Positions 721 through 16,494 of a stretch of DNA of 16,494 bases are shown one piece after another (the stretch's first letter is position 1; each line of letters starts with the position of its first letter). Source of the stretch: Deltaproteobacteria bacterium (GTDB lineage Bacteria > Desulfobacterota > Desulfarculia > Desulfarculales > Desulfarculaceae); contig JAHLLK010000098.1 in the NCBI GenBank assembly GCA_020444165.1, positions 1 through 16,494 of the forward strand, in the 5' to 3' direction. The translations under genes were made by a program, and so were the position numbers. A model generated the notes under the pieces. It ran no database searches and was not told where the DNA came from. It worked only from the letters and a program-made list of their open reading frames with translations.

Positions 721-748
721 TTGACATGGGTATTTTTTTAGCTATCAT
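721..748 (+). promoter_or_regulatory. Sigma-70-type promoter of the RRM gene
   Basis: A perfect -35 box TTGACA (721-726) is separated by 16 bp from TATCAT (743-748), which matches 5 of 6 bases of the -10 consensus. The spacer contains an AT-rich run. Transcription would begin near 755, giving a leader of about 147 nt. This is one of the best consensus promoters in the window. Confidence 0.7.
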
Positions 749-850
749 GGTCGGAGAATCCGGCCGAGTAGTCGAAATTTTCCGCTAGATGCGCCCACAA
801 GCTTTGGTCAAATCTAAGCATAGAAAGTAAGGCTCGTTAGGCCGCGGAGA

Positions 851-890
851 CCCTCCTTTGGCGGGAGGGGTGATCGCATTTGCAAAGGAG
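851..890 (+). promoter_or_regulatory. RRM leader with alternative SD-sequestering and SD-free folds
   Basis: Two pairings compete for the same bases. CCCTCC (851-856) can pair with GGAGGG (864-869) as a local hairpin with a 7-nt loop. Alternatively CTCCTTTG (853-860) pairs perfectly over 8 bp with CAAAGGAG (883-890), which contains the ribosome binding site of the RRM gene. The stretch CCTCCTTT is identical to the 16S rRNA anti-SD core. The geometry suggests cis control of translation, by temperature, protein or ribosome. The pairing is seen; the regulation is inferred. Confidence 0.5.
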
Positions 891-901
891 TTCGAGAAAA
901 G

Positions 902-1171
902 ATGGTAAAGAACATTTACGTGGGCAACTTGTCGTTCAATTCCGATGACCAGGAATTGCGCAGCTGGTTTGAGCAGTATGGCACAGTGCACTCCGCCAAG
1001 GTCATTACCGACCGGGAGACCGGCCGGTCGCGCGGTTTTGGTTTCGTGGAAATGGACGACGAAGGCTCCGATGAGGCCATCCGGAACCTGAACGGCGCCG
1101 ATATGGGCGGCCGCATCCTCAAGGTCAACGAAGCCCGTCCCCGCGAGCCCCGTCCCCCCCGCCGCTGGTAA
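902..1171 (+). CDS. Single-RRM RNA-binding protein
   Basis: An 89-residue protein consisting of one RNA recognition motif followed by a short Arg/Pro-rich tail (residues 80-89). RNP2 is IYVGNL at residues 5-10 and RNP1 is RGFGFVEM at 44-51, with the aromatic residues that stack on RNA (Y6, F46, F48) intact. Small RRM proteins of this type occur in cyanobacteria and several proteobacterial lineages, where some are cold-induced; they bind RNA and are thought to act as chaperones or regulators. The ATG at 902 follows AAAGGAG (884-890) at an 11-nt spacing. The gene is monocistronic, with its own promoter, long leader and strong terminator. The leader arrangement suggests post-transcriptional control, possibly autoregulation, but that is inference. 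Confidence 0.95.
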   Translation: MVKNIYVGNLSFNSDDQELRSWFEQYGTVHSAKVITDRETGRSRGFGFVEMDDEGSDEAIRNLNGADMGGRILKVNEARPREPRPPRRW

Positions 1172-1210
1172 GTACCCGCCGGACGGCCGGCGGAAGCCAC
1201 GGAAAAACCA

Positions 1211-1242
1211 CGAACCCCGCCCCCAGGCGGGGTTCGTTTTTT
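1211..1242 (+). terminator. Strong bidirectional rho-independent terminator
   Basis: An 11-bp perfect stem (CGAACCCCGCC at 1211-1221, partner 1226-1236) with a CCCA loop is followed by six T residues (1237-1242). On the opposite strand the stem is followed by TGGTTTTTCC. It therefore serves both the RRM gene and the convergent pyrG-kdsA-kdsC operon. Confidence 0.92.
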
Positions 1243-14336: not shown

Positions 14337-15467
14337 TCAGGGATGCACCGTGTCCACGAATACGAACTTGCCCTGGTCCACCTTCATGATCACCGCCGGC
14401 TTCACCGCGTCATGGCTGGTCAGGGTCATCACCCCGGTGGCTCCGGCAAAGTCCTTGGTGTCCTCCAGGGCTTGGCGGATCGCCGCGGGGTCGGCCTTGC
14501 CGGCCCGCCGGATGGCGTCCATCACCACCAGGTGGGCGTCGTAGCCCAGGGCCCCCATGGCGTCCGGCGCCTGGCCATAGCGGTTGTTGTAGGCCTTGGC
14601 GTAGGCGTGGCCCGCGGGGGTGGTGACCCCCAGCTCGTCGAAATGGGTGGTGAAGTAGAGCCCTTCCACGGCCGGGCCGCCGATTTTGATCACTTCCTCG
14701 GCCTGGGCCGCGTCGCCGGAGAGGAACGGCGCCTTGATGCCCAGTTCGCGGGCTTGGCGGATGATCAACGGCTCCTCGGGCAGATACCCCGGCAGGTAGA
14801 TGATGTCCGGCCCCGCGGCCTGGATCTGGCCCAGTTGGGGGCTGAACTCCTGGTCACCGGAGGAATACAGGGCCTTGGCCACGATCTTGCCGCCGGCCGC
14901 TTCAAAGGCCTTTTGGAAGAAGTTGGCCAGGCCCACCGAGTAGTCGCGGCTGATGTCCACCAGCATGGCCGCCTTCCGGGCCCCCAGTTTGGCATAGGCG
15001 TAGCGGGCGGCCACCCCGCCCTGGAAGGGGTCCACGAAGCAGGTGCGGAACACCCATTTCTTGCCCTTGGTCACCAGGGGATTGGTGGCCCAGCCGGAAA
15101 CCAGGGGCACCTCGGCCGCCTCGGCCACCGGCGCCGCGGCCAGGGTGGTGGAGGAGGACAAGGCCCCGATGATCGCCTTGACCCCGTCCCGCTGCACCAG
15201 GCGCTGGGCCGCGTTGGAAGACTCCACCTTGTCGGATTTGTTGTCCAGCAGGATCAGCTTCACTTTGCGGCCCAAAACTTCGGGCTGGATTTCCCGGGCC
15301 AGCTCGATGCCGCGCCAGGCCATCTGGCCGTAGGCCGCCGCCGGGCCGGTCATGGGCAGGATCACCCCGAGGGGCAGCTCGTCCGCCGCCTGGGCCGGTC
15401 CGCTCCCCAGGCAGGAGAGCAAGGCCGTGGCTCCCAGGACCCATCCCAGTCTTCTGGCCAGCTTCAT
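14337..15467 (-). CDS. Liv-type ABC transporter substrate-binding protein (SBP1)
   Basis: A 376-residue type I periplasmic binding protein (Leu/Ile/Val or HAAT family). The signal peptide spans about 1-27, with a basic start, a hydrophobic core and the AQA|A site. A Cys at 19 in LLSC is a weak lipobox, so lipoprotein anchoring is not excluded. The mature protein begins with LPLGVILPMTGPAAAYGQ, the usual first strand and ligand loop, and continues with IGALSSSTTLAAAPVAE, SGWATNPLVT and DISRDYSVGLANFF, typical of this fold. Ligand cannot be assigned: branched-chain amino acids are the default, but urea, amides and aromatic acids are also bound by relatives. ATG 15467 has GGAGG 6 nt upstream. 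It lies between paralogue SBP2 and livH. Confidence 0.93.
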   Translation of the reverse strand: MKLARRLGWVLGATALLSCLGSGPAQAADELPLGVILPMTGPAAAYGQMAWRGIELAREIQPEVLGRKVKLILLDNKSDKVESSNAAQRLVQRDGVKAIIGALSSSTTLAAAPVAEAAEVPLVSGWATNPLVTKGKKWVFRTCFVDPFQGGVAARYAYAKLGARKAAMLVDISRDYSVGLANFFQKAFEAAGGKIVAKALYSSGDQEFSPQLGQIQAAGPDIIYLPGYLPEEPLIIRQARELGIKAPFLSGDAAQAEEVIKIGGPAVEGLYFTTHFDELGVTTPAGHAYAKAYNNRYGQAPDAMGALGYDAHLVVMDAIRRAGKADPAAIRQALEDTKDFAGATGVMTLTSHDAVKPAVIMKVDQGKFVFVDTVHP

Positions 15468-15535
15468 GCTTGCCTCCTCTCACCGTGCAGTGCAGGTTAG
15501 CGGTCGGGGGCCGGGGGCGCGCCGGCCCGGCAGGG

Positions 15536-15568
15536 CAAAGAAATCCGCCGCCCCCTGGGGGGCGGCGG
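15536..15568 (-). terminator. Terminator between the two binding-protein genes
   Basis: A GC stem of up to 11 bp (15545-15555 with 15558-15568), just after the SBP2 stop, is followed on the minus strand by ATTTCTTT. It would partly end the transcript after SBP2, letting the first binding protein be made in excess over downstream genes. I see no clear promoter in the remaining gap (15468-15535). Confidence 0.72.
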
Positions 15569-15578
15569 CGGGTTTCGC

Positions 15579-16494
15579 TTAGGGCTTCACCGTGTCCACG
15601 TACACGAATTTGCCGTTTTCCACCTTGAGGATGACGGCCGGCTTCACGGCGTTGTGGTCCACCAGGGTCAGCACGCCGGTCACTCCCGGGAAGTCCTTGG
15701 TCTGGTCCAGGGCGGCGGTCACCTTGGCGGCGTCGGTGCTCTGGACCTTTTCCATGGCGTCCAGGAGCACGTTGTAGGCGTCATAGGAAAGCGCGCTCAC
15801 CGAGTCGGGAGCCTCGTTGTACTTGGTCCGGTAGTCTTTCACGAAACGCTTGCCGGCCTCGGTGGTCACGCCCTTCTCGTCGAAGTGGGTGGTGAAGTAC
15901 AGGCCTTCCACCGCCTTGCCGCCGATGGTCAGAAGCTCCTGGGCCTGGGCCGCGTCACCGGCCAACAAGGGCGTCTTGAGGCCCAGTTCCCGGGCCTGGC
16001 GGGCGATGAGAGCGTCCTCGGTGAAGTAGCCGGTCACGTAGATCACCTCCGGCTTCGCGGCCTGGACCGTGCCGAGCTGGGCGGAGAAGTCCTGGTCATT
16101 GGTGGAAAAATGGGTCTTGGCCACGATCTTGCCGCCCATCTCGGTGAAGGCCCGCTCAAAGAAGGCGGCGATGCCCACACTGTAATCCTGGCTGATGTCG
16201 ATCATCACGGCCGCGGTCTTGGCCTTCAGGTTGTGCCGGGCGAAATTGGCCGCCACCCGCCCCTGGAAAGGATCGATGAAGCAGACCCGGTAGGCGAACT
16301 TCTTGTCCTGGGTCACCAGGGGGTTGGTGGCCCAGGGGCTGACCATGGGGATGCCGGCCGCCTCGCACACCGGGGCGGTGGCCAGGCTGTTGGAGCTGGT
16401 GAGGGCGCCGATCACCGCCGCCACCTTGTCCCGCTGGATCACCCGGTTGGCCGCGTTGGAGGCCTCCACCTTGTCGGACTTGTTGTCCGCGATC
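15579..16494 (-). CDS. Liv-type ABC transporter substrate-binding protein (SBP2), N terminus outside window
   Basis: The visible 304 residues are the C-terminal part of a second type I periplasmic binding protein; the start, signal peptide and first strand lie beyond the right edge. The reading frame enters at IADNKSDKVEASNAANR, which aligns without gaps to the equivalent part of SBP1. Similarity continues to the end: IGALTSSNSLATAP, ATNPLVT, DPFQGRVAA, DISQDYSVGI, GDAAQAQELLTIGGKAVEGLYFTTHFDEKGVTT, and the shared C terminus FVYVDTVKP. The close match implies tandem duplication. Differences cluster in positions such as SGWATN versus SPWATN, which could affect ligand choice. It is the most upstream visible gene of the Liv cluster and is followed by a hairpin terminator. 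Confidence 0.93.
   Translation of the reverse strand, partial: IADNKSDKVEASNAANRVIQRDKVAAVIGALTSSNSLATAPVCEAAGIPMVSPWATNPLVTQDKKFAYRVCFIDPFQGRVAANFARHNLKAKTAAVMIDISQDYSVGIAAFFERAFTEMGGKIVAKTHFSTNDQDFSAQLGTVQAAKPEVIYVTGYFTEDALIARQARELGLKTPLLAGDAAQAQELLTIGGKAVEGLYFTTHFDEKGVTTEAGKRFVKDYRTKYNEAPDSVSALSYDAYNVLLDAMEKVQSTDAAKVTAALDQTKDFPGVTGVLTLVDHNAVKPAVILKVENGKFVYVDTVKP

Follow-up and report, generated by a model that had tools for sequence, protein, structure and literature searches.

Many bacteria have small RRM proteins and, to our knowledge, the control of the corresponding genes has been little studied. Cold-induced RRM genes exist in bacteria, and in Escherichia coli the cold-box leaders of the csp and csdA genes keep their mRNAs translated after a temperature drop. 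According to the sections of PMC3485376 that we consulted, RNA helicases are often linked to cold stress, and the helicase gene crhR to autoregulation. In Bacteroides, the rbpB mRNA harbours a binding site for RbpB (PMC11697453, sections consulted).

Here we analyzed the leader of an RRM gene located in a 16,494-nt stretch of DNA (the whole stretch is called the window below) and compared it with the leaders of its relatives. It is very probable that a conserved functional element exists in this leader. As shown by comparison, the same element precedes, in the relatives, paralogous RRM genes and one RhlE-like helicase gene, the latter either immediately or with the RRM gene of an RRM-rhlE pair in between. 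The features of the locus are listed in Table 1.

Table 1. Features of the RRM gene and its leader, in window coordinates
Feature	Positions	Strand	Details
Predicted promoter	721–748	+	-35 TTGACA 721–726; -10 TATCAT 743–748
Domain I, conserved structured leader RNA	759–843	+	Model R1, 62.2 bits; this sequence was among the model rows
P1, 5' arm	762–773	+	GGCC 762–765, GA 766–767, AGUC 770–773; pairs with 831–843
P1c, 5' arm AUUUUC	777–782	+	Pairs with 823–828; pair probabilities 0.74–0.82
P2, 5' arm GCUAGAU	784–790	+	Pairs with 812–815 and 817–819; pair probabilities 0.80–0.83, one pair 0.41
P2, 3' arm AUCUaAGC	812–819	+	Pairs with 784–790; covarying pairs in P2
P1, 3' arm	831–843	+	GGCU 831–834, UU 837–838, GGCC 840–843
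Hairpin P4	844–877	+	Core 851–857/863–869, outer pairs 844–847/874–877; includes the anti-SD-like CCTCCTTT
Shine-Dalgarno (SD) AAGGAG	885–890	+	Read in the sequence
RRM protein gene	902–1171	+	89 aa; Pfam RRM_1; NCBIfam Rbp_regulator NF058537
Intrinsic-terminator-like site 3' of the RRM gene	1210–1237	+	12 pairs, U run

The RRM protein scores 117.9 bits with the NCBIfam model of bacterial Rbp RRM regulators (NF058537) and passes its curated cut-off of 100. The promoter-like sequence upstream of the gene, TTGACA-16-TATCAT at 721–748, has 11 matches out of 12; one such sequence is present between positions 400 and 1500, compared with a mean of 0.2 in 50 shuffles. It is compatible with a transcription start at about 755, and because of it the 147-nt leader suggested in an earlier sequence-only reading of this DNA is plausible, with a predicted promoter of its own. 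The predicted leader (about 755–901) contains domain I, hairpin P4 and the SD, in this order, followed by the ATG at 902, and stem P1 of domain I begins about 7 nt downstream of the predicted start site. In 33 of 35 leaders a -35-like box lies 172–188 nt upstream of the start codon (L098 lacks the box, and in L088, where the contig is short, it is misplaced). In the leaders that precede a helicase gene only, the box lies 37–38 nt before domain I in five cases out of five.

Two observations were made outside the leader. The region 1160–1243 resembles the Pseudomonas rnk leader below threshold (28.9 bits versus 55), and this resemblance rests mostly on the strong two-way terminator at 1210–1237. 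On the minus strand, positions 14337–16493 contain two adjacent and similar substrate-binding proteins of the branched-chain-amino-acid type, with ABC transporter genes alongside (ORF list, by eye).

Domain I is a long interrupted hairpin at the 5' end of the leader (P1-P2-P3). In this leader the pair probabilities of P1a, P1b, P1c and P2 are mostly about 0.8 (in P1, 0.81–0.83, and 0.44–0.56 at 766–767), and P3 is weak. The stability of domain I here does not differ significantly from that of dinucleotide shuffles (p = 0.10), p ≤ 0.05 being reached in 22 of the 35 leaders, and the whole stretch 755–940 is not more stable than chance (z = -0.24). Domain I is the best conserved part of the leader and is missing from the two alternative folds drawn in the sequence-only reading.

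A scan of genome contigs yielded 80 loci, including Candidatus Adiutrix. Within the class, represented by 63 genomes, an RRM match at E ≤ 1e-12 was present in 57, and RRM places with E > 1e-12 were left out of the counts. A CTP synthase match is present in 18 of the 23 genomes of the group and absent in five. The CTP synthase of this genome is 79–84% identical to 15 of these 18 (one gene is partial) and 62–69% identical to the other three. By this measure of sequence identity, the genome is placed in the closest group sharing the leader.

Two models were used to follow the element. Model R1 describes domain I and was built from RRM leaders only; of 35 leaders that were aligned, 27 entered the model, and L086, L088, L090, L126, L127, L128, L131 and L132 were omitted as divergent. 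Of these, L086 and L088 were later recovered by R1, L131 and L132 were matched by R2 at 24 bits, and for L090, L126, L127 and L128 there was no R2 match at E ≤ 0.1. Applied to the class with strict filters, R1 has matches at E ≤ 0.05 in 24 of 63 genomes, the weakest of them being noise. It recovered nine leaders outside the model, five of which stand directly before helicase genes. Among the R1 matches away from known RRM loci, a helicase gene lies behind five and an RRM gene behind one, with nothing sensible behind several weak ones; the weak matches L187 and L191–L193 were set aside as chance.

Model R2 has 36 rows. At 45 bits or more it gives 35 matches in 17 of the 23 genomes; since every one of the 35 belongs to the alignment from which R2 was made, this tally is a count and not a new discovery. 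The same element stands there before several related genes, namely 29 RRM and five helicase genes, and the remaining match is at a contig edge. The 23 genomes contain 66 RRM places; 31 of these have an R2 match, which in two cases is weak (24 bits), and 35 have none. A wider distribution of domain I was rejected: in the phylum only eight of 395 genomes have an R2 match at E ≤ 0.001, all of one clade and all also in the class group, in a scan whose stricter filters lose weak matches. In one further locus, L185 (G062:C54:151-234), a weak R2 match of 29.7 bits is followed by a P4-like hairpin and an SD; no RRM was found in this locus, which has a long sensor-like ORF, and L185 is perhaps a leader remaining after gene loss.

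Leaders of the closest group follow a common pattern: CCAATnAGCC, CCGCTAGAT, a variable hairpin, ATCTcAGC, A-rich letters and GGCTnnTTGG, the latter being in many relatives the counterpart of the 3' arm of P1. A separate hairpin, usually a U-rich stretch, and the SD come after it. In the alignment of relatives, P1 is formed by CCAATnAGCC with GGCTnnTTGG, and P2 by GCTAGAT with ATCTcAGC.

Covariation in P1, P1c and P2 was evaluated in two alignments, with statistics that are inflated in both by the kinship of the rows. In the model-fitted alignment of 36 leaders, 76.0% of the cells are paired, and 13 of the 20 pairs and 43 cells are changed on both sides; each of these values was reached in none of 500 shuffles, while further pair types were reached by six of 500. 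Slid registers of this alignment gave 17–52% paired cells, and a slide of +2 columns also gave 13 pairs. The MAFFT alignment, which was not fitted to structure and has nine rows fewer, gave 75.4% paired cells and 31 cells changed on both sides, neither being reached in 500 shuffles. Its nine pairs with change on both sides were equalled in 48 of 500 shuffles and by a slide of +1, and its further pair types were reached by 57 of 500. From the unfitted alignment of 35 rows, RNAalifold drew parts of P1, P2 and P4 unprompted; on alignment A4 it predicted no pairs. The nine leaders that R1 found outside the model keep 13–17 of the 20 pairs in an alignment fitted to R1.

Covarying stems across orthologs, as expected of a structured cis-regulatory leader, were thus found, the results for alignment A4, the G-U and A-C cells, the strand and the slid registers being weak or contrary. 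With 57 G-U versus 53 A-C cells, the two kinds hardly differ in number, and the sense strand is not proven by them; the numbers become 55 versus 24 after post hoc removal of three pairs that seem misregistered or spurious. In only five of 36 leaders is domain I more stable in sense than in antisense, and antisense is favoured by a mean of 6.9 kcal/mol. We read the better antisense folding as due to a conserved CC that faces a conserved AA and pairs with it as G-U on the antisense strand. These letters, the CC before P2 and the AA of the opposite loop, are conserved and unpaired within the element. The near-equality of G-U and A-C cells and the antisense stability count against a structured RNA. 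They favour the view that what is conserved here is not a structured mRNA leader, and is either a DNA operator or an antisense RNA, which we nevertheless consider very unlikely. The strong matches examined have a promoter-like site on one side and the gene on the other, and share the orientation of the gene (the match at the contig edge shows no gene); P2 is nested in P1 and both covary, and G-U cells exceed A-C cells once the three pairs are removed post hoc.

The element is not limited to RRM genes. Domain I lies directly before five genes for RhlE-like DEAD-box helicases, with R1 scores of 63.6, 40.8, 35.2, 31.6 and 27.6 bits; an unrelated place in G037, taken as chance, scores 28.9 bits, near two of these helicase leaders (27.6 and 31.6). 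All five helicases contain the Pfam domains DEAD and Helicase_C, and for the one helicase that was scanned the best NCBIfam models were those of RhlE, below cut-off. When one helicase was used as the query of a protein search, 37 places were matched: 22 have 38–49% identity, and 15 reach at least 66%, a set that includes the query itself and one place with an internal stop. Of these 15 orthologs, ten follow an RRM gene of the same strand at a distance of 124–200 nt, and five come directly after the leader. An R2 match is present upstream of 14 of the 15 orthologs (12 at 45 bits or more and two at 24; the ortholog of G043 is without one), and the helicase is therefore tied to this leader in those 14. 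Upstream of the 22 paralogs with 38–49% identity no R2 match was found. The simplest explanation of the tie is descent from an RRM-rhlE gene pair in which some lineages no longer have the RRM gene; leaders with a helicase gene only may then be remnants of such pairs, and would not be independent gains.

Downstream of domain I, the region 844–879 is more stable than chance in this leader (p = 0.010), and in 25 of 35 leaders the 36 nt 3' of domain I reach p ≤ 0.05 against dinucleotide shuffles. The local hairpin at 851–869, noticed already in the sequence-only reading, is real, and its counterpart recurs in relatives. If P4 were an intrinsic terminator and domain I decided whether it forms, the leader would act as a transcription attenuator. 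A loose consensus of this kind, a hairpin near P4 and then a U-rich stretch, is indeed seen in 16 of 35 leaders, and a T run of at least five in the last 60 nt in 28 of 35. This leader does not belong to the 16: its longest T run near P4 is 3, and no GC hairpin followed directly by a U run was found in it. Besides, in 15 of the 16 leaders with the loose consensus the T run does not begin at the stem, and P1 and P4 share no bases here. Attenuation by P4 is in our view decidedly unlikely, and as a general mechanism terminator attenuation was rejected because the terminator-like site is absent from this leader.

A different use of the same hairpin was proposed in the sequence-only reading, namely a two-state switch in which CTCCTTTG (853–860) masks the SD region CAAAGGAG (883–890) or the local hairpin, CCCTCC (851–856) with GGAGGG (864–869), frees it, temperature or the RRM protein choosing between the two. 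All of these strings are present, as is the copy of the anti-SD core CCTCCTTT (852–859), which by itself is unremarkable (one found, 0.65 expected). The arm pair of CTCCTTTG and CAAAGGAG is present at a single place in the window, none of 200 shuffles contains it, and the eight perfect pairs have p = 0.008 in this leader against 500 dinucleotide shuffles (uncorrected for the choice of leader). Against the switch stands its distribution: among 29 leaders (L090, L126, L127, L128, L131, L132 and L188 were omitted from this count), a perfect complement of at least 6 nt within 60 nt upstream of the SD is found in this one only, and anywhere in the leader in two. Comparison of orthologues thus retains the local hairpin as conserved and not the SD stem. 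Since pyrimidines often abound in the 5' arm of P4, a purine-rich SD easily finds a partial match there.

Predicted energies point the same way. The SD pairing has a probability of 0.003–0.004 at 4–37°C versus 0.92–0.95 for the competing hairpin, forcing it costs 4.0–5.1 kcal/mol relative to P4 over the same range, and P4 precedes it in the order of transcription. The predicted mean unpaired probability of the SD (886–890) is flat at 0.40 between 4 and 37°C and rises to 0.43 at 45°C and 0.58 at 60°C. A helix that sequesters the SD and is kept in orthologs, as an RNA thermometer would need, was found in one of 29 leaders. The SD/anti-SD switch was rejected on its poor conservation (1/29 leaders) and unfavourable energy, and the thermometer on the lack of a predicted temperature effect on folding at 4–37°C; we find such a switch hardly credible. 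The broader meaning that had been attached to the leader, a regulated gene for an RNA-binding protein, is supported as the likely one.

A regulatory leader most simply accounts for the near-fixed distance to the promoter, the position at the 5' terminus, the recurrence in front of RRM genes and the link with the helicase. The stem could also have a simpler purpose. In the ompA leader, a 5' stem protects the mRNA from 5'-end-dependent decay, and the 5'-terminal stem described here might merely stabilise its mRNA in the same manner; this agrees with the near-fixed distance between promoter and leader and with P1 beginning only some 7 nt downstream of where transcription is predicted to start. 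Since the conserved unpaired CC and AA exceed what a plain stem needs, we regard it as unlikely.

We judge the chances to be about even that the whole can be read as a conserved, structured leader RNA that regulates a set of RRM and helicase genes in cis, probably through feedback by a protein. In such a leader, an RNA-binding protein encoded by the set, be it the RRM protein, the helicase or each of them, would dock on domain I and feed back on the translation or stability of its own mRNAs; P4 may keep the region before the SD tidy or act as the output hairpin. Protein feedback is the first choice of mechanism, because the genes encode RNA-binding proteins and the rbpB mRNA harbours an RbpB site (PMC11697453, sections consulted); as the mechanism of this leader it is plausible, at somewhat less than an even chance.

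Cold regulation is a fair second reading, after protein feedback: a cold-shock leader would keep the RRM and helicase mRNAs translated when the temperature drops. The existence of cold-induced bacterial RRM genes is in line with it. The same can be said of the ties of helicases to cold stress and the autoregulation of crhR (PMC3485376, sections consulted). On the other side, the predicted folding of the SD region does not depend on temperature at 4–37°C, and no Rfam family matches at gathering threshold in the window. Taken as the function of this leader, cold-shock control is rather doubtful. A more permissive Rfam search (E ≤ 5) of positions 620–1260 gave seven matches, none within the leader. 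In 15 related loci the sole Rfam match was a c-di-GMP-I riboswitch outside the RRM leader (L073, 3913-3990 on the minus strand, 48.8 bits).

Structured leaders of other types were observed before RRM genes in other lineages. In the Desulfovibrionales (L018, L026, L073 and others), about 100 nt before the RRM start, there is a leader composed of a hairpin around GCATCTTGTAC with a U run, a hairpin of the GGCGCA..GGGCGCC type and an SD; no Rfam match was found in the RRM leader of the six Desulfovibrionales loci scanned. Model R3 of this leader gave 18 matches of at least 41 bits (13 of them in the model and five new) in eight of 14 genomes. A spread of the Desulfovibrionales leader to helicase genes was rejected: 17 of the 18 strong matches lie just before an RRM gene, and no helicase was found directly behind any of the 18. 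An R3 match of 43.5 bits in L277 (G443:C460:4495-4575), where no RRM was found in the locus, is possibly a leader remnant. These leaders are similar to the one described here in being two-hairpin structured leaders before paralogous RRM genes, and differ from it in sequence, in their hairpins and in that no helicase was found directly behind them.

In sister groups of the same class (L103–L106, L109, L110, L136 and L141), GGTCCGACCTGACAGGACCA with 0–1 mismatch and then a second hairpin are located upstream of the RRM start; judged from its sequence, this is a third type of RRM leader. With 0–1 mismatch GGTCCGACCTGACAGGACCA has nine matches, eight at RRM loci and one at a contig edge. At up to three mismatches there are 16 matches in 14 of 37 genomes, and the reversed control also matches at three mismatches.

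It is tempting to suppose that domain I is the receptor by which the RRM protein controls its own paralogs and the partner RhlE through one shared leader, forming a small RNA regulon, and that separate lineages (this clade, the Desulfovibrionales and the sister groups with GGTCCGACCTGACAGGACCA) each arrived at a leader structure of their own to the same end; we offer this tentatively, as possible rather than probable. A leader common to RRM and helicase genes is a concrete and testable RNA target for a small RRM protein. In a bounded literature search no description of such an RRM/helicase leader was found. We propose it as a previously undescribed leader RNA and a candidate new family, one that lies outside the usual model organisms.

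Among known systems, the cold-box of E. coli cspA and csdA is likewise a leader element common to a gene for an RNA-binding protein and a helicase gene; here, in contrast, the proteins are of the RRM and RhlE types, the structure is another one and there is no Rfam match in the window. The terms RRM and rbp are not used in the consulted text of a survey of cyanobacterial DEAD-box helicases (PMC8190605). In Synechocystis, crhR, a stress DEAD-box helicase gene, is under feedback similar to that proposed here; it belongs to another phylum, and the sections of PMC3485376 consulted name no leader common with an RRM gene. As for RbpB of Bacteroides thetaiotaomicron, no conserved structured leader is described in the consulted sections of PMC11697453 and the word helicase is absent from its main text; RbpB is, however, a bacterial RRM-1 protein, and likewise the RRM protein analyzed here passes the NCBIfam model Rbp_regulator.
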